Part shown: positions 22 to 7,091 of the stretch, one piece after another
Numbering within the stretch: the first letter of the stretch is position 1
Layout of the letters: the number at the start of each line of letters is the position of its first letter
Source: a virus
Strand: one strand, 5' to 3'
Virus record (IMG/VR): IMGVR_UViG_3300030110_003272
Span: 1-20,069 of that record
DNA length: 20,069 nt
Notes under the pieces: model-generated
Database searches by the model: none
Seen by the model: only the letters and a program-made list of their open reading frames with translations
What the model was told of the DNA's origin: nothing
Position numbers and translations under genes: made by a program

Positions 22-1863
22 ATGCCAAGAAGTAAATCTGGCTCATCAAATGGTGGCGTACTAGGGGTTTCTAATAAAGCCTCTTTTGGAAAAAATACTG
101 TTACATCTAAAACTTCTTCAGGAAATATCACAACACAAGCAGGAACTAAAGTAATTGATACTTTAGTAGTTGCTGCAGGTGGATCAGGTGGAAATGATGC
201 TGGTGGTGGCGGTGGTGCAGGAGGCATGCTTTCCACTACAAGCGTAAATGTATGTGGTTCAACCACTTATGCAGCAGTTATTGGCGCTGGTTCAGCTAAC
301 CCAGGAAGTCCACAAAGTTTTGGTGCTAAAGGAAACAATTCAACTTTAACAATAGGATGCACAGTTTTAACAGCAACAGGTGGTGGTGGAGGAGTATTTC
401 AAAATACTCCTGATTGTGTGAAAGATGGTGGTTCTGGTGGTGGAGGAAGAGGTTCTGGAACAGGTCAATGTAAAGGTGAAGGAATAGTCGGCCAAGGAAA
501 TGATGGTGGAACTGGATCTAGAGGTGGCGGTGGTGGTGCCGGAGGTACAGGAGCAGCTTCTCCTAATGATGTTAATGGTGGTGCTGGTGGAAATGGTTTA
601 GCAAATAATATTACAGGTTCATGTGTTACTTATGCTGGTGGTGGTGGAGCAGGTGCAGAAGCACCGGGCACAGGTGGTGCTGGTGGCCCAGGTGGCGGTG
701 GTGCTGGTGGAAATAGACCTGGCCCAGGAAGCACTGGAACAGCAGGAACAGCAGGCACAGCAAACACTGGAGGCGGCGGTGGTGGTTCAGGTGGAGGGCC
801 AAGTAATACTGCAGCAGGAACAGGTGGCTCAGGAATAGTAGTAGTAAAAGAATTAAATAAAGCAAGTGGTGTGTGGTCAATGCAAAGTCAATTTAGTGCT
901 CAGTCTGAAGGAACATGGCCTAAACCATCCTTCACATTAAATTATCTAGTAATCGCTGGTGGAGGTGGTGGAGGTTTTGCTGCTTCTCCAAACTATACTG
1001 CTGGTGGTGGAGGTGGTGCTGGAGGTTATAGACACACTTCAGTTGATTTATTTGCACCCGGAACATTTGCAGTTGTCATAGGTGGTGGTGGAGCAACTGG
1101 TAATACTCCTGCACCAGGTGCGTTAGGAAGCTTATCAAGTTTTGATGCTTGTGGAACTTTAGAATTAATATCAGCAGGTGGTGGATCAGGTGCTGATGGT
1201 TTTTGTGGACAGCCGGGAACAGGACCTTTTCCTGCCAATTACAAAAAAGCAGCTCAAGCCGGTGGATCAGGTGGTGGTGGAGCTTGTCAAGGATCAAGAA
1301 AATGTGGAGCAGCAGGTAATACACCTCCTGTAAGTCCACCTCAAGGTAATCCAGGAGGAGACGCACCTGGTAGCACTGGTGATGGTGGTGGTGGAGGTGG
1401 TGGAGCTGGTGGAGCTGGAGCTGATGTTTCACCTGCAGACACAGGTGGAGCTGGTGGAGCAGGATCTAATGCATGGCCAGGTGACTGTACATTAAGAGCC
1501 GGTGGTGGTGGCGGTGGAGGTGGTGGACCTAACAACATCCCTTATGCACAAGCAGGACCAGCTGGAGCTGGAGGACCTGGAGGCGGTGGTCATGGAACTG
1601 CAGGAAGACCATGTGGAACTGGTGGTGGAGGTCCAAATTACAACGCAGGATCATCGGGAACAGCTAACACTGGTGGTGGTGGCGGTGGTGGTGGCGGTGA
1701 CGCTGGTGGTCATACTGGTGGATCAGGAACTGTATTAGTAAGATTTCCAGGAGGCATATCGGCTAGTGTTACACCTGGTACAAATAGCATAGCGTGTGTT
1801 CCAGGACCTTCTACGGACAAAGTAGCAACCTTTACAGTATCAGGAAATTTTGTTATAAGTTAA
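22..1863 (+). CDS. Glycine-rich tail fibre / adhesin-like protein with a duplicated Gly-rich module
   Basis: 613 residues. The ATG is preceded by a perfect AGGAGG with 5-base spacing. After a Ser/Thr/Lys-rich N-terminus (about 1-43) come two similar modules. Module A (about 44-278) opens with IDTLVVAAGG and closes with GSGIVVVKE; module B (about 306-580) opens with LNYLVIAGGGGG and closes with GSGTVLVRFPGG. Both hold long runs of Gly with Ala, Ser, Thr, Asn and Pro, and the protein has about twelve cysteines. This layout is familiar from marine phage fibre-type proteins, and poly-Gly segments can form polyglycine-II helix bundles, as in the T-even-like phage S16 adhesin gp38. The likely role is receptor recognition at the tail or a fibre tip. 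It is followed three bases later by the oxygenase cluster. The module reading is direct from sequence; the adhesin role is inferred. Confidence 0.72.
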   Translation: MPRSKSGSSNGGVLGVSNKASFGKNTVTSKTSSGNITTQAGTKVIDTLVVAAGGSGGNDAGGGGGAGGMLSTTSVNVCGSTTYAAVIGAGSANPGSPQSFGAKGNNSTLTIGCTVLTATGGGGGVFQNTPDCVKDGGSGGGGRGSGTGQCKGEGIVGQGNDGGTGSRGGGGGAGGTGAASPNDVNGGAGGNGLANNITGSCVTYAGGGGAGAEAPGTGGAGGPGGGGAGGNRPGPGSTGTAGTAGTANTGGGGGGSGGGPSNTAAGTGGSGIVVVKELNKASGVWSMQSQFSAQSEGTWPKPSFTLNYLVIAGGGGGGFAASPNYTAGGGGGAGGYRHTSVDLFAPGTFAVVIGGGGATGNTPAPGALGSLSSFDACGTLELISAGGGSGADGFCGQPGTGPFPANYKKAAQAGGSGGGGACQGSRKCGAAGNTPPVSPPQGNPGGDAPGSTGDGGGGGGGAGGAGADVSPADTGGAGGAGSNAWPGDCTLRAGGGGGGGGGPNNIPYAQAGPAGAGGPGGGGHGTAGRPCGTGGGGPNYNAGSSGTANTGGGGGGGGGDAGGHTGGSGTVLVRFPGGISASVTPGTNSIACVPGPSTDKVATFTVSGNFVIS

Positions 1864-1866
1864 TCT

Positions 1867-2400
1867 GTGAAAGTCATAGATAATAAGGTATCCAAAGTAC
1901 TTCAGAATAAAATTGAAGAATATTTTTTGCACGATAATTTTCCATGGTATTACAATAATAATTCATTAGGTAATTTTGTTGCAAAAAAATATAAAAAAAT
2001 AACTAAAGATAGTTTTAATGAATTTCAATTAACTCACAAATTTGTAGATGAAGGAAAAGTAAATTCAACTCATACAAATATAATTATTGATTTATTAGAT
2101 GAATTAAACATGGAAAAAACTAGTATTATAAGATGTAAGGCTAATTTAAAATTTAAAACTAATACAATAAAAAAACATAATGTACTTCATGTAGATCATA
2201 AAGATCCACATAAGGTTATGATATATTATGTAAATGACAGTGATGGGGATACTTATTTAAAAATAGGAAAAACAACTAAGAGAATAAGTCCAAAAAAAGG
2301 CAGAGTTCTTTATTTTGATGGAAGTATAATGCATGCAGCCAATCATCCTAGAAAAACAAATAAAAGGTTGATTATTAATTTTAATTTGGTAAAAAAATGA
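1867..2400 (+). CDS. 2OG-Fe(II) oxygenase-like protein, first of five
   Basis: 177 residues starting at GTG, three bases after the fibre stop; I see no earlier or better start. A double-stranded beta-helix oxygenase signature is visible late in the protein: H108-V-D110 (the HxD iron-binding pair), then IYYVN at 119-123, a typical strand after HxD. A distal H156 follows an LYFDGS strand, and R167 lies 11 residues beyond it, where the 2-oxoglutarate carboxylate-binding Arg is expected. The expected reaction is Fe(II)- and 2-oxoglutarate-dependent hydroxylation; the substrate is unknown. Protein substrates (prolyl or other side chains), nucleic acid or small molecules are all possible. It is very rich in Lys, Asn and Ile, like its four neighbours. 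The fold call rests on motifs only. Confidence 0.7.
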   Translation: MKVIDNKVSKVLQNKIEEYFLHDNFPWYYNNNSLGNFVAKKYKKITKDSFNEFQLTHKFVDEGKVNSTHTNIIIDLLDELNMEKTSIIRCKANLKFKTNTIKKHNVLHVDHKDPHKVMIYYVNDSDGDTYLKIGKTTKRISPKKGRVLYFDGSIMHAANHPRKTNKRLIINFNLVKK

Positions 2401-2422
2401 TAGTGGAGATGAAAGTAAAAAG

Positions 2423-3058
2423 ATGAATTTAGTTAATTATTATTATTATTTTACGGGAGTAATACCTCATAAGGTTTGTGATGATATTGTAAGATATGGT
2501 AAAACTTTATCTGATCAAATGGCTATCACGGGTGGATTCGGAGATGATCCAAAAAAATTAAATAAAAAACAAATTAAAGATTTAAAACAAAAAAGAGATT
2601 CTAATATTGTTTGGATGAATGATAGATGGATTTATAAAGAAATACAACCTTACATTCATAAAGCAAATAAAATGGCTGGTTGGAATTTTAATTGGGACTA
2701 TTCAGAATCTTGTCAATTTACAAAATATAACAAAGGTCAATATTATGATTGGCATTGTGATAGTTGGGATAAACCTTATCAAACACAAGATACACGAGAT
2801 CCTTCTAATGGTAAAATAAGAAAATTATCTGTAACTGTTTCTTTGTCTGATCCTAAAGAATATAAAGGTGGTGAATTAGAGTTTGATTTTAGAAATATGG
2901 ACCCAGATAAAAAAAGAAATATTAGAAAATGTAAAGAAATACTACCAAAAGGATCTGTTATTGTTTTTCCATCTTTTGTGTGGCATAGAGTATGTCCTGT
3001 TACAAAAGGATCAAGACATAGTTTAGTTATATGGAATTTAGGATATCCATTTCAATGA
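2423..3058 (+). CDS. 2OG-Fe(II) oxygenase, PKHD-hydroxylase-like
   Basis: 211 residues. A prolyl-hydroxylase-type core is clear: YNKGQYYDWHCD carries H111-x-D113, followed by a KLSVTVSLSD strand, YKGGELEF at 147-154, PKGSVIVFPSFVWH with distal H188, and R198 ten residues later as the likely 2-oxoglutarate-binding Arg. The N-terminal half holds the substrate-side helices. The arrangement matches the PKHD/P4H-like oxygenases common in T4-like cyanophages and other marine phages, whose substrates are mostly unknown. The start at 2423 follows a purine-rich GGAGATGAAAG tract. It also overlaps the stop of a nine-codon mini-ORF (2397-2426). It ends in an ATGA overlap with the next gene. This is the best-supported oxygenase of the cluster. 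Confidence 0.85.
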   Translation: MNLVNYYYYFTGVIPHKVCDDIVRYGKTLSDQMAITGGFGDDPKKLNKKQIKDLKQKRDSNIVWMNDRWIYKEIQPYIHKANKMAGWNFNWDYSESCQFTKYNKGQYYDWHCDSWDKPYQTQDTRDPSNGKIRKLSVTVSLSDPKEYKGGELEFDFRNMDPDKKRNIRKCKEILPKGSVIVFPSFVWHRVCPVTKGSRHSLVIWNLGYPFQ

Positions 3059-3549
3059 CACCTAAAATTTATGAATATAAAAATTTTTTAAAACCTATGG
3101 AATGTAAATATTTTATAGACAAACACTCTCAATTTTTTAATCCAGAAAATGATGACAGAACTTTTAGCCATAGAAAAACTCAAGTTATTACTGTTTATCC
3201 TTTTTCAAATACTCATACAAATTTTACTTATAAAGCTAAAAAATTAAATGGTCGTCTTGATTCTGCTGTTAAAAAAATAAATAACAAAGGGTTTGTTAAT
3301 TATTTTCAAATTGTAAAATGGTTAGAAAATTCTAATCAAGGTATTCACTTAGATTTTAAAAATCATTATTATACTAGTATTATTTATTTAAATGATAATT
3401 TTGAAGGGGGAGAGACTATAATTAATAATATTAAAATAAAACCTAAAAGAGGATTAATGATATTATTTAGTGGAAATAAAATTAAACATGGTGTAAACAA
3501 TATTACAAAAGGAGAGAGATATACAATACCTTGTTGGTACACGAAATAA
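3055..3549 (+). CDS. 2OG-Fe(II) oxygenase, prolyl 4-hydroxylase-like
   Basis: I choose the ATG at 3055, which forms an ATGA overlap with the previous stop and gives 164 residues. An in-frame ATG at 3031 would add eight residues but lies inside the preceding gene. The core reads GIHLDF with H98-x-D100, YYTSIIYLND, then FEGGET at 116-121, which is characteristic of P4H-type enzymes. KPKRGLMILFSG leads to H145, and R155 lies ten residues later. The full HxD...H...R set is present in a compact protein near the minimum for a P4H catalytic domain. The presumed activity is hydroxylation of a protein or peptide; the substrate is not evident. It could act on proline residues of the adjacent Gly/Pro-rich fibre, which is inference from proximity and family. 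Confidence 0.8.
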   Translation: MTPKIYEYKNFLKPMECKYFIDKHSQFFNPENDDRTFSHRKTQVITVYPFSNTHTNFTYKAKKLNGRLDSAVKKINNKGFVNYFQIVKWLENSNQGIHLDFKNHYYTSIIYLNDNFEGGETIINNIKIKPKRGLMILFSGNKIKHGVNNITKGERYTIPCWYTK

Positions 3550-3551
3550 CT

Positions 3552-4229
3552 ATGACTTTTCCAAATAAATTAAATTTAGAGCATTACTTTCCTTGTCCTA
3601 TTTGGTGGGCAGATGAACCTAAGTTTGTAAATAAATTAAATAAAGCCTCTGATCCTTATATTAAAAAATCTCAAAAAAATTTAAAAAAAACAATTGATGA
3701 AAGAAATAAAAAATTTGGTGATAAAGGAGATGCAGGGCAAGTATTTCATTCTACAACTTTAATAGGTGACCCTAAATTTAATGAATTAACAAAATACGTT
3801 GGTGCAACAGCACACAATTTATTAATTGAGATGGGTTTTGATTTAAAAGACTATCAAATATTTACAACAGAGATGTGGGTTCAAGAATTTGCTAAAAAAG
3901 GTGGCGGACACCATACTTTACATACACATTGGAATGGACATATATCTGGATTTTATTTTTTGAAATGTAGCGAAAGAACATCTATGCCAGTTTTTGAAGA
4001 TCCAAGAGCAGGTAATATGATGAATCTTTTACCTGAAAAGGATAAAACAAAAGTTACAACCGCAACTTCACAAATACATTTTAAAGTTAAACCTGGTCGT
4101 ATGATATTTTTCCCATCTTATATGCCTCATTTATATAGTGTGGATTTAGGATATGAACCATTTAGGTTTATACATTGGAACTGTCAAGCAATACCGAAAG
4201 GAGTATTAAATGTCATTCAAAAAAAATAA
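3552..4229 (+). CDS. Putative 2OG-Fe(II) oxygenase of the TIGR02466 / 2OG-FeII_Oxy_5 type
   Basis: I choose ATG 3552, two bases after the preceding stop, giving 225 residues; the TTG at 3531 would add seven. The sequence follows the pattern I associate with the TIGR02466 family. It has TTEMWVQEF, a His-rich segment with H120, H121, H124 and H126, then GHISGFYFLK, FEDPRAG at 148-154, KPGRMIFFPSYMPH with distal H193, and R205 in the final strand. The usual HxD aspartate is replaced by an HxH arrangement, so assignment of iron ligands is uncertain. Family members are widespread in marine phages and bacteria with unknown substrates. The 3' end overlaps the next gene by 20 bases and carries that gene's strong Shine-Dalgarno sequence. 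Confidence 0.75.
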   Translation: MTFPNKLNLEHYFPCPIWWADEPKFVNKLNKASDPYIKKSQKNLKKTIDERNKKFGDKGDAGQVFHSTTLIGDPKFNELTKYVGATAHNLLIEMGFDLKDYQIFTTEMWVQEFAKKGGGHHTLHTHWNGHISGFYFLKCSERTSMPVFEDPRAGNMMNLLPEKDKTKVTTATSQIHFKVKPGRMIFFPSYMPHLYSVDLGYEPFRFIHWNCQAIPKGVLNVIQKK

Positions 4230-4842
4230 ATATACAGTATTAAAAAAAGCAGTTAGCAAAGAAATGGCCGATTTTTGTTATGCTTATTTTTTAAATAAAA
4301 GAAAGGTTGCGAGATTTTTGTTTGATCAAAGATATATATCTCCTTTTACAGAAGAATGGGGGGTTTGGACAGATGAACAAATTCCAAATACATACTCACA
4401 TTATGCAGATATAGTTATGGAAACTTTATCACAAAAAGTAAAACCTACTATGGAAAAACATACGGGTTTAAAATTATGTGAGACATATACTTATGCTAGA
4501 ATATATAAACAAGGCGATGTCTTAGCTAGACACAAAGATAGATTTAGTTGTGAAATATCTACGACACTTAATCTTGGTGGCGATGAGTGGCCTATATATT
4601 TAGATCCAACAGGTAAAGAAAAACAAGCTGGTGTCAAAGTTAAATTAGATCCAGGTGATATGCTTATATATTCTGGATGTGATCTAGAACATTGGAGAGA
4701 AGAGTTTAAAGGTGACCAATGTGGTCAAGTATTTTGTCATTACAATAAAAAAGGCTCTAAGATGGCTAAAGAAAATGAGTTTGATACGAGACCATTTATA
4801 GGGCTACCTTCATGGTTTAAAGGCTTTAAATTACCAAAATAA
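4210..4842 (+). CDS. 2OG-Fe(II) oxygenase-like protein lacking the usual Arg
   Basis: 210 residues. The start at ATG 4210 is supported by AAAGGAG at 4197-4203 inside the preceding gene. The core has YTYARIYKQGDVLARHKD with H108-x-D110, CEISTTLNLGG, PIYLDP, a DPGDMLIYSG strand, distal H161, then QVFCHYN at 173-179. The HxD...H iron triad is therefore intact. However, no Arg or Lys sits about ten residues after H161, where the 2-oxoglutarate carboxylate is normally held. Gln173 is close to that position, and R163 or K168 are alternatives. I have seen this HxD / EHWRE / QVFxHY pattern in other phage proteins, so it may be a subfamily trait rather than a defect. It is the last gene before the intergenic hairpin. 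Confidence 0.72.
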   Translation: MSFKKNKYTVLKKAVSKEMADFCYAYFLNKRKVARFLFDQRYISPFTEEWGVWTDEQIPNTYSHYADIVMETLSQKVKPTMEKHTGLKLCETYTYARIYKQGDVLARHKDRFSCEISTTLNLGGDEWPIYLDPTGKEKQAGVKVKLDPGDMLIYSGCDLEHWREEFKGDQCGQVFCHYNKKGSKMAKENEFDTRPFIGLPSWFKGFKLPK

Positions 4843-4913: not shown

Positions 4914-7091
4914 ATGCTACAAAAAATAGGTTTTCAACCAGGTATAAATAAACAAGTTACAGCTACTGGAGCAGAATCACAGTGGATAGATTGTGATAAT
5001 GTTAGATTTAGATATGGCACCCCTGAAAAAATAGGTGGTTGGAAGCAATTAGGAGATGATGCTCTTACTGGTGCAGGTAGGGGACTTCACCATTTTGTAA
5101 ATAGTAAAGCTAGAAAATATGCAATTATAGGCACAAACAGGATTTTATATGCATACTCTGGTGGTGTATTTTATGATATACATCCTATTAAAACTACAAC
5201 AACTCTTACAAGTGCATTTAGCACTACTAACGGATCACCAACTATTACAATAACTTTCAGTGGAGATCACGGTATATCTGAACAAGACATAGTATTATTA
5301 GATAATTTTAGTGCAATAACTAATTCTAATTTTGCAGCGGCAGATTTTGATGATAAAAAATTTATGGTAACGACTGTGCCTACAAGCACAACTATTACAA
5401 TTACAATGCCATCAAATGAAACAGGATCTGGTGCAACAACATCAGGCGGTGTTAGAGTACAACATTACTACCCTGTAGGACCAGCTGTACAAGCAAAAGG
5501 TTTTGGTTGGTCTCTTGGCTCTTGGGGTGGTGAAGTAGCAGGAGAACCCACAACAACATTAACAAATGGTATTATAGACACCGCAACAACAGGTATTATA
5601 TTAGGAGATGTATCACAATTTCCTGATACCGGGACAAACTTTATAAAAATAAATAATGAAGAAATATCTTATACAGGTATATCCGGTAATGAACTTACAG
5701 GTGTAACTAGAGAAGTAAGAGGTACAACAAAAGCTGCACATAGTGGTGGTGCAACAGTTACAAGCACAACAAACTTTGTAGCATGGGGAGAAGCTGCATC
5801 AGGTGATTTAGTTTTAGAACCAGGTATGTGGTCACTAGATAATTTTGGTGACAAAGCTATTTGTTTAATTCACGATAGTGCTGTTTTTTCTTGGGACTCT
5901 GCAGCAACAGGAGCAGAAAATATTAGAGCCACAATTATATCTGGAGCACCTACAGCATCAAGACATATGTTAGTATCTACTCCTGATAGACACTTAGTAT
6001 TTTATGGAACAGAGACAACGATTGGAACACCAACAACACAAGACGATATGTTTATTAGATTTTCTGACCAAGAGGATATAAATACATATACACCTACAGC
6101 AACTAATACAGCTGGAACACAAAGACTAGCCGATGGATCACAAATCAGAGGAGCAATTAGAGGTAGAGATGCTATCTATGTTTGGACTGATACCGCATTA
6201 TTTACTCAACGTTTTGTTGGATCTCCTTTTACTTTTGCATTTGCACAAGCAGGAACTAACTGTGGACTTGTTGGACAGAATGCATGTGTAGAGGTTGATG
6301 GTGCTGCTTATTGGATGTCAGAGAATGGTTTCTTTAGATACGCTGGTAAACTAGAATCATTACCATGTTTAGTAGAAGATTTTGTTTATGACAATATAAA
6401 TTTAGAATCTGGTAATCAGATGGTATCAGCAGGATTAAATAATTTATTTGGAGAGGTTGTATGGTTTTATCCAACAACAGGATCTTCAGTTGTCAATAAA
6501 CAAGTTACTTATAATTATTTTGATTCATCGCCACAACGACCAGTTTGGACCGTTGGAACATTAGCTAGAACTATGTGGGAGGATTCTGCGGTATTTGGTA
6601 AACCACATGCAACAGAATATACTGCAGGTAATGATTCATCGTTTGATGTTGTAGGCAACACAGAGGGTAGAACAATATACTATGAACACGAAACAGGGAC
6701 AGATCAAGTTCAAGGTGGTACAACAACCGCGATTGTTGCAAGTATTGAATCAGGAGACTTTGATATTACTCAAAGAATAGTTGGCAACCAACAAACTGGA
6801 ATAGCTGATATTAGAGGTGATGGAGAATTTATAATGAAGATAAGAAGATTTGTTCCTGATTTTATATCTCAAACAGGTTCAACTAGAGTTACATTAAATT
6901 TAAGGGATTTTCCAAATGATTCACAAACAGGTTCTTTATTAGGACCGTTTGATGTAACATCTAGCACAAAAAAAGTAGACACACGTGCAAGAGCAAGAGC
7001 CATTGCATTAAAGATAGCAAATACAACAACTAATCAGAGTTGGAAATTAGGAACTTTTAGGTTAGATATACAACCAGATGGAAGAAGATAA
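4914..7091 (+). CDS. Tail hub/nozzle protein, P22 gp10 / DNA-stabilisation-like
   Basis: 725 residues, ATG with AGGA five bases upstream. The N-terminus (QKIGFQPGIN, then WIDCDNVRFRYGTPEKIGGW) is a hallmark of a phage packaged-DNA-stabilisation or tail-nozzle family frequent in marine podoviruses. These proteins act below the portal, closing the DNA channel and carrying tail parts, comparable to P22 gp10 or T7 gp12. Repeated beta-rich segments with W, F and G (for example GDKAICLIHDSAVFSWDS, RHLVFYG, AIYVWTDTALF) fit a beta-propeller. An inserted segment around 226-285 contains NEEISYTGI and GVTREVRGT, a motif seen as a small add-on domain in phage tail proteins. Length is nearer T7 gp12 than P22 gp10. 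It heads the virion gene run. Confidence 0.7.
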   Translation: MLQKIGFQPGINKQVTATGAESQWIDCDNVRFRYGTPEKIGGWKQLGDDALTGAGRGLHHFVNSKARKYAIIGTNRILYAYSGGVFYDIHPIKTTTTLTSAFSTTNGSPTITITFSGDHGISEQDIVLLDNFSAITNSNFAAADFDDKKFMVTTVPTSTTITITMPSNETGSGATTSGGVRVQHYYPVGPAVQAKGFGWSLGSWGGEVAGEPTTTLTNGIIDTATTGIILGDVSQFPDTGTNFIKINNEEISYTGISGNELTGVTREVRGTTKAAHSGGATVTSTTNFVAWGEAASGDLVLEPGMWSLDNFGDKAICLIHDSAVFSWDSAATGAENIRATIISGAPTASRHMLVSTPDRHLVFYGTETTIGTPTTQDDMFIRFSDQEDINTYTPTATNTAGTQRLADGSQIRGAIRGRDAIYVWTDTALFTQRFVGSPFTFAFAQAGTNCGLVGQNACVEVDGAAYWMSENGFFRYAGKLESLPCLVEDFVYDNINLESGNQMVSAGLNNLFGEVVWFYPTTGSSVVNKQVTYNYFDSSPQRPVWTVGTLARTMWEDSAVFGKPHATEYTAGNDSSFDVVGNTEGRTIYYEHETGTDQVQGGTTTAIVASIESGDFDITQRIVGNQQTGIADIRGDGEFIMKIRRFVPDFISQTGSTRVTLNLRDFPNDSQTGSLLGPFDVTSSTKKVDTRARARAIALKIANTTTNQSWKLGTFRLDIQPDGRR

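Follow-up and report, generated by a model that had tools for sequence, protein, structure and literature searches.

A glycine-rich fibre-like gene and a cassette of divergent 2-oxoglutarate oxygenases are inherited together in marine phages

Oxygenases dependent on Fe(II) and 2-oxoglutarate (2OG) are very common in marine phages, and the passages available from the literature regard them as metabolic genes whose substrates are unknown. In the available part of Sullivan et al. 2010 (PMC3037559), a "Hyp. with ferrochetalase domain" is listed, a draw-down of 2OG to succinate with effects on NtcA is proposed and DNA repair is suggested for the cyanophage oxygenases. The corresponding passages of Wittmers et al. 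2022 (PMC9599517) describe eight non-orthologous 2OG oxygenases adjoined by one or two "ferrochelatases", and discuss heme and iron in connection with this pairing. Those of a 2024 time series (PMC11561400) report a seasonal enrichment of both gene classes, and those on S-SCSM1 and S-CREM1, with 24 and 10 oxygenases, respectively, handle these as metabolic genes (PMC9602691, PMC9964418). Here, a cassette of five such genes (ox1 to ox5) is described in the virus record IMGVR_UViG_3300030110_003272, whose whole analysed stretch of 20,069 bases is called the window. The cassette follows a glycine-rich (Gly-rich), fibre-like gene and is co-inherited with this gene, not with the genes on its flanks.

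Phage oxygenase arrays themselves are already known. The original prediction, made from the letters of the window, spoke of single or scattered oxygenases in marine phages, which understates their occurrence: long arrays are present in cyanophages and in myoviral pelagiphages, with nine consecutive ones in S-CREM1 and five in HTVC008M, and syn9 and Mosig also carry larger arrays. Tail-fibre, collagen-like or Gly-rich genes are found near several of these larger arrays. What appears to be new is the link to the fibre, together with the correction of the "ferrochelatase" label described below; priority is uncertain since many journals were not covered. Neither an oxygenase identity of the "ferrochelatase" nor a co-inheritance with a fibre is stated in the available passages of the five papers cited above, and a literature search on fibre hydroxylation by phage oxygenases returned nothing relevant, most subscription journals being outside its reach.

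Based on family models, motifs and predicted folds, all five open reading frames (ORFs) are divergent 2OG-Fe(II) oxygenases, with a predicted catalytic activity. The cut-off of PF13640 is passed by ox2 and ox3, and those of PF13759 and TIGR02466 by ox4 (scores in Table 1), in agreement with the original description of ox4 as a histidine-rich, TIGR02466-like variant. As ox1 stays slightly below the PF13640 cut-off (25.7 vs. 27 bits) and no 2OG oxygenase model of Pfam or NCBIfam matched ox5, the assignment of these two rests on fold and motif. The double-stranded beta-helix is predicted in ox1 and ox5 by AlphaFold2 and Foldseek, and in ox2 to ox4 by sequence family only. In the family alignments, the HxD...H motif is conserved at 93–100% in ox1, ox2, ox3 and ox5. 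The residues initially read from the sequence are correct for ox1 (H108/D110/H156/R167), ox2 (H111/D113/H188/R198) and ox5 (H108/D110/H161), where they are 98–100% conserved; those of ox3 had been numbered eight too low, from a later start, and are H106/D108/H153/R163. In ox4, an HxH stands at the place of the HxD of the other four (H131-x-H133...H200...R212), and a three-histidine metal site is possible. PDB entry 3bvc, matched by ox4 (E 1.7e-5), likewise has an HxH when aligned to the ox4 family.

Among the described enzymes, ox2 resembles the PKHD-type hydroxylases PiuC/YbiX (PiuC in the PDB, E 4e-6), and ox3 is weakly similar in sequence to prolyl 3-hydroxylase 1 (E 8e-4) and to prolyl-4-hydroxylase (P4H; E 2e-3), both in the PDB. 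The nearest fold or sequence matches of ox1, ox2, ox3 and ox5 are largely protein hydroxylases (P4H/PHD/PKHD). This likeness to the protein prolyl hydroxylases is a similarity in kind, by which membership is not proven. Between any two of the five, BLASTP identity is at best 30% (over 66 aa), and a significant match is lacking for the majority of pairs, which bears out the earlier view of a collected set instead of recent tandem copies. Compared with their relatives, all five genes show a dN/dS of 0.08–0.34, indicating purifying selection.

The AlphaFold2 model of ox1 (pLDDT 95.0) has human PHD2/EGLN1 as top Foldseek matches, and that of ox5 (pLDDT 91.6) has the Pseudomonas putida prolyl-4-hydroxylase as top match in the PDB (E 6e-9), the structure of which was solved together with EF-Tu. 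For both models, the 50 matches listed are all 2OG-type oxygenases. VIA gave Z values of 16–17 for ox5 to P4H, PHD2 and SnoN, with SnoN at the head of the list. Iteration of the ox5 profile led to a drift into ox2/ox3, possibly via two-domain fusion proteins, and length-limited families were used instead. The profile-profile links of ox5 to the other four are weak (at best 48% probability, with ox3), and the fold was therefore used for this protein. Against the PDB sequences, the ox5 profile found nothing and the ox1 profile only weak EGLN1 matches.

Because the folds of ox5 and ox1 are those of 2OG oxygenases, the names "ferrochelatase" and "DNA endonuclease V" find no support. The first (phrog_2954) was rejected for ox5, whose entire chain is covered by the oxygenase fold; neither Pfam nor NCBIfam has a ferrochelatase model that matches it at E values up to 1. 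The second (denV, phrog_274) was rejected for ox1 in view of its PHD2-like fold; no endonuclease V family was found, the Pfam matches being 2OG/hydroxylase families and one DUF, and the NCBIfam matches 2OG families. Neither a ferrochelatase nor a nuclease occurs among the 50 fold matches listed, an absence that is not taken as proof by itself. The published ideas on heme and iron manipulation rest on the "ferrochelatase" label of pelagiphages and cyanophages, here corrected to oxygenase. By tblastn, phrog_2954 (with members in, e.g., L291, L292 and L296) is matched in 156 phage records, many of them annotated as ferrochelatase, and the "DNA endonuclease V/denV" label of many cyanophage records falls on the PHD2-like oxygenase family. 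The 453-aa "ferrochelatase" of S-SCSM1 (L293:8881-10242) gives matches to the ox5 family as well as to PF13640, and is apparently a two-domain oxygenase fusion.

To compare the composition of the cassette, the oxygenases were used as baits for related viral contigs, which gave 250 non-redundant loci. Exactly ox2-ox4-ox5 is present in 126 of them. All five genes in the order of the window were found in eight non-redundant contigs, two more show only ox1-ox2-ox3-ox4, and the other loci hold further combinations, the complement varying widely between relatives. The five-gene set is an enlarged three-gene core, ox2-ox4-ox5, with ox1 and ox3 as add-ons in one group. A survey for conservation as a block, as called for by the original prediction, thus finds the order recurring, but the conserved unit is the smaller core. 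Neither non-beta-helix folds in two or more of the genes nor a set that never co-occurs was found, both of which had been named as counting against the initial proposal. In most sufficiently long loci, the cassette lies between the Gly-rich gene and vsp, a virion structural protein gene of the phage backbone. Among phage-like contigs that were binned with genomes of marine bacteria and whose ox5 is only 41–71% identical, most of those reaching far enough upstream keep the order Gly-rich gene, at least one short gene and ox2...ox5. In one locus (L458:3879-6541), the gene run upstream of vsp, oxygenases included, is on the opposite strand, forming an inverted cassette, and L472 looks similar.

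The link to the fibre was analyzed in contigs seeded on vsp and with enough upstream sequence, a seed that favours neither fibres nor oxygenases. Fibres were classed by our own rules on composition and repeats, the threshold for the Gly-rich class being 30% Gly in 60 residues. At least two oxygenases are present in all 33 contigs with a Gly-rich fibre, whereas none of the four with a LamG-like (lectin-like) fibre has any (Fisher test, Gly-rich vs. LamG, p 1.5e-5). Propeller-like fibres with DFGD repeats are followed by ox4-ox3 only (4/4) and WDGSSW-repeat fibres by two or three oxygenases (3/3); four further contigs have oxygenases and no recognised fibre. Contig L420, a borderline case assigned to the Gly-rich class, has the propeller-type oxygenase set. 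The smaller, different set that accompanies the propeller-repeat fibres suggests that oxygenase sets match fibre types. On the vsp tree, the Gly-rich state changes at least seven times across well-supported branches, and the module is therefore swapped on one backbone. A search seeded on the Gly-rich protein of a distant contig found oxygenases downstream in 10 of 11 new loci, the eleventh ending at the Gly-rich gene.

Pairwise identities lead to the same unit. Their rank correlation is 0.62 between fibre and ox2, 0.56 between fibre and ox5 and 0.85 between ox2 and ox5, but −0.18, −0.11 and −0.04 between ox5 and the backbone genes vsp, g8 and up318. These flanking genes, from either side of the cassette, correlate together (up318-vsp 0.37, vsp-g8 0.56), and a partial linkage to both sides is seen for up130, another upstream gene. 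Across the 63 loci with all genes, the partial correlation of oxygenases and fibre given vsp is 0.54 (permutation p 0.002), as against −0.01 for oxygenases and vsp given the fibre. In their inheritance, oxygenases and fibre act as a single, exchangeable unit. The multi-step or multi-target pathway of the original prediction is a possibility; the co-inheritance points to a specific partner not considered there, the adjacent fibre-like gene. In large cyanophages the association is looser: over eight whole phage genomes, an oxygenase is found within 5 kb of 12 of the 19 Gly-rich genes (6 expected, p 0.05) and of eight of the nine most Gly-rich ones (2.8 expected, p 0.01). Co-inheritance within one phage group is the stronger test of the two.

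The Gly-rich partner contains two PF21722 (Gly_rich_2) stretches (93.9 bits), belongs to PHROG 2295 and weakly matches the tail-fibre-assembly family phrog_863; it is probably a tail fibre. It carries a P-x-[EQ]-G-N motif within "PPVSPPQGNPGGD". This motif is present in 171 of 254 non-redundant Gly-rich proteins, with 4.4 expected after shuffling, an excess to which common descent contributes, and it may serve for recognition or modification. A collagen-like excess of P-G dipeptides was considered and rejected, Gly following Pro only as frequently as composition predicts. In some loci (L401, L411, L416, L426), the slot of the Gly-rich fibre is filled by up to three consecutive fibre genes made of GNATDFGDL-type repeats.

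The nearest named relatives of the window are SAR11 phages, chiefly Pelagibacter phage HTVC033P. SAR11-type hosts are the commonest bacteria of the ocean. By its genes, the window is a phage structural region: they encode a virion structural protein, tape-measure-like and ejection-protein-like proteins and an endolysin, and a helicase gene lies on the opposite strand. The five oxygenase genes form a co-oriented run (1867-4842) with no intervening gene, as originally described; the last four ORFs overlap by 19–28 nt, and only 71 bases separate ox5 from vsp.

Table 1. Position and assignment of the fibre-like gene, the oxygenase cassette and the adjoining backbone gene in the window.
Feature	Coordinates	Strand	Evidence
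Gly-rich fibre-like protein, 613 aa, 33% Gly; proposed substrate	22..1863	+	PF21722, PHROG 2295
ox1, 177 aa, GTG start; accessory member	1867..2400	+	PF13640 25.7 bits, AlphaFold2, Foldseek
ox2, 211 aa; core member	2423..3058	+	PF13640 62.3 bits; PDB PiuC E 4e-6
ox3, 172 aa; accessory member	3031..3549	+	PF13640 44.7 bits; PDB prolyl hydroxylases
ox4, 232 aa, listed TTG start; core member	3531..4229	+	PF13759 52.2 bits, TIGR02466 64.1 bits
ox5, 210 aa; core member	4210..4842	+	phrog_2954 2.8e-50; AlphaFold2, Foldseek, VIA
vsp, virion structural protein; backbone starts beyond cassette; not co-inherited with cassette	4914..7091	+	phrog_3287 2.6e-97

The inheritance of oxygenase sets with the fibre, and not with the surrounding genes, suggests that these enzymes finish the part of the phage that grips the host. 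We give a probability of about 50% to a receptor-binding module that is exchangeable and includes its own oxygenases, whose target would most likely be the newly made fibre or a virion protein that is its partner. Such a module would consist of the Gly-rich adhesin or tail-fibre gene and its own oxygenase set, read as a run of overlapping genes, and would be swapped between phage backbones as a unit. During assembly, each enzyme would bind Fe(II) and 2OG, use O2 and release CO2 and succinate, hydroxylating the side chain of one particular Pro, Asn or Asp residue in the fibre or its partner, perhaps around the P-x-[EQ]-G-N motif. The hydroxylation might then set the folding, stability or receptor specificity of the fibre, from which the phage would benefit. 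At somewhat lower odds, each fibre type may have matching hydroxylases that make the modifications needed for receptor recognition, so that a swap in host range would take fibre and enzymes together.

Several observations weigh against a module of this kind. Linkage differs from activity, and an adjacent block could be co-inherited without its enzymes acting on the fibre. Since oxygenases also follow propeller-repeat fibres, the Gly-rich domain is not their sole target, and since some cellular ox5 relatives lie in NRPS/PKS-type clusters, the ox5 family is not restricted to proteins; no single pathway emerges from the cellular ox5 neighbourhoods. The LamG group consists of four contigs only, with at least two changes on the vsp tree. 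For the whole genomes, 16 threshold combinations were tried, the majority not significant; some Gly-rich genes of S-SCSM1 and S-CREM1 have no oxygenase nearby, and many cyanophage oxygenases are located elsewhere. The association at this scale is loose and at most suggestive.

It is unlikely that the oxygenases are auxiliary metabolic genes acting on host 2OG/nitrogen signalling or on iron and heme, placed beside the fibre merely because this site tolerates cargo. This is close to the published view, which invokes 2OG draw-down and NtcA signalling in the available part of PMC3037559, and it would fit the pairing with the "ferrochelatase" and the seasonal enrichment of both classes (passages of PMC9599517 and PMC11561400). 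The "ferrochelatase", however, is itself an oxygenase, and burning 2OG needs no several divergent enzymes. Tolerated cargo, moreover, should neither track the divergence of the fibre over that of the adjoining vsp nor be absent from every LamG-fibre phage of the same backbone. Co-inheritance with the fibre type is accounted for equally well if the targets are on the host side (an envelope lipid, a glycan, a small molecule or the receptor), serving superinfection exclusion or progeny release, with the fibre addressing the same receptor. The proximity of some ox5 relatives to small-molecule enzymes, and the first place of SnoN, one such enzyme, in the VIA list, also speak for host-side targets. 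Yet, the nearest folds as a group are protein hydroxylases, and the cassette sits among virion genes. Moreover, two bacterial lineages have ox5 relatives next to tail-collar or surface proteins: phage-tail-collar-domain proteins in Methylobacter, and Lcl_C and large surface-like proteins in Polaromonas (L383:6960-9266, L389:1-6979). Host-side action is hence considered as doubtful as the metabolic role.

Modification or repair of DNA or nucleotides, in a TET/JBP- or AlkB-like manner, is very improbable. It has precedents in the superfamily, follows the PHROG class ("DNA, RNA and nucleotide metabolism") and the "DNA endonuclease V" label of ox1, and agrees with the repair suggested for cyanophage members in the available part of PMC3037559. 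But ox1 folds like PHD2, with no nuclease among the fold matches listed, no DNA-metabolism gene lies in or beside the cassette within the window, and co-inheritance with the fibre would have no reason.

With the P. putida prolyl-4-hydroxylase, PHD2/EGLN1 and PiuC/YbiX, the enzymes of the window share the fold and the metal-binding residues. The identity in structure alignments is 10–20%, and the substrates of those enzymes are not transferable. Virus enzymes that modify the fibre of their own virus are known from Mimivirus, with its collagen-like fibre hydroxylase (L230), and from phage-encoded virion glycosylation. The concept is alike, whereas the enzymes (a lysyl hydroxylase/glucosyltransferase and glycosyltransferases) and the hosts are different.

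The arrays of T4-like cyanophages and pelagiphages (S-SCSM1, S-CREM1, syn9, HTVC008M and Mosig, and the HTVC023P type of Wittmers et al. 2022) consist of the same subfamilies, divergent, non-orthologous and often adjacent, and share the "ferrochelatase" and "DNA endonuclease V" families with the window. They differ in how they have been read, namely as auxiliary metabolic genes in the published passages available. In HTVC008M, syn9 and S-CREM1 (L290, L292, L294), genes for tryptophan halogenases are located a few kb or less from the arrays, with Gly-rich or collagen-like genes also nearby, and are possibly part of the same modification islands. If fibre-finishing sets are real, a considerable proportion of the very common "auxiliary" 2OG oxygenases in ocean viruses would have an assigned role.

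The closest cultured relative is HTVC033P (gp58-gp62), in which the Gly-rich gp62 is followed by ox2, ox4 and ox5, with oxygenases 73–79% identical to those of the window. It differs in having the three-gene core, without ox1 and ox3, and its ox5 is annotated as a "putative ferrochelatase". Inheritance alongside the fibre gene gives the cassette a concrete candidate substrate, so that the proposal is testable on this phage. The cassette of the window is real, selected, conserved and of a known kind, in a new context.

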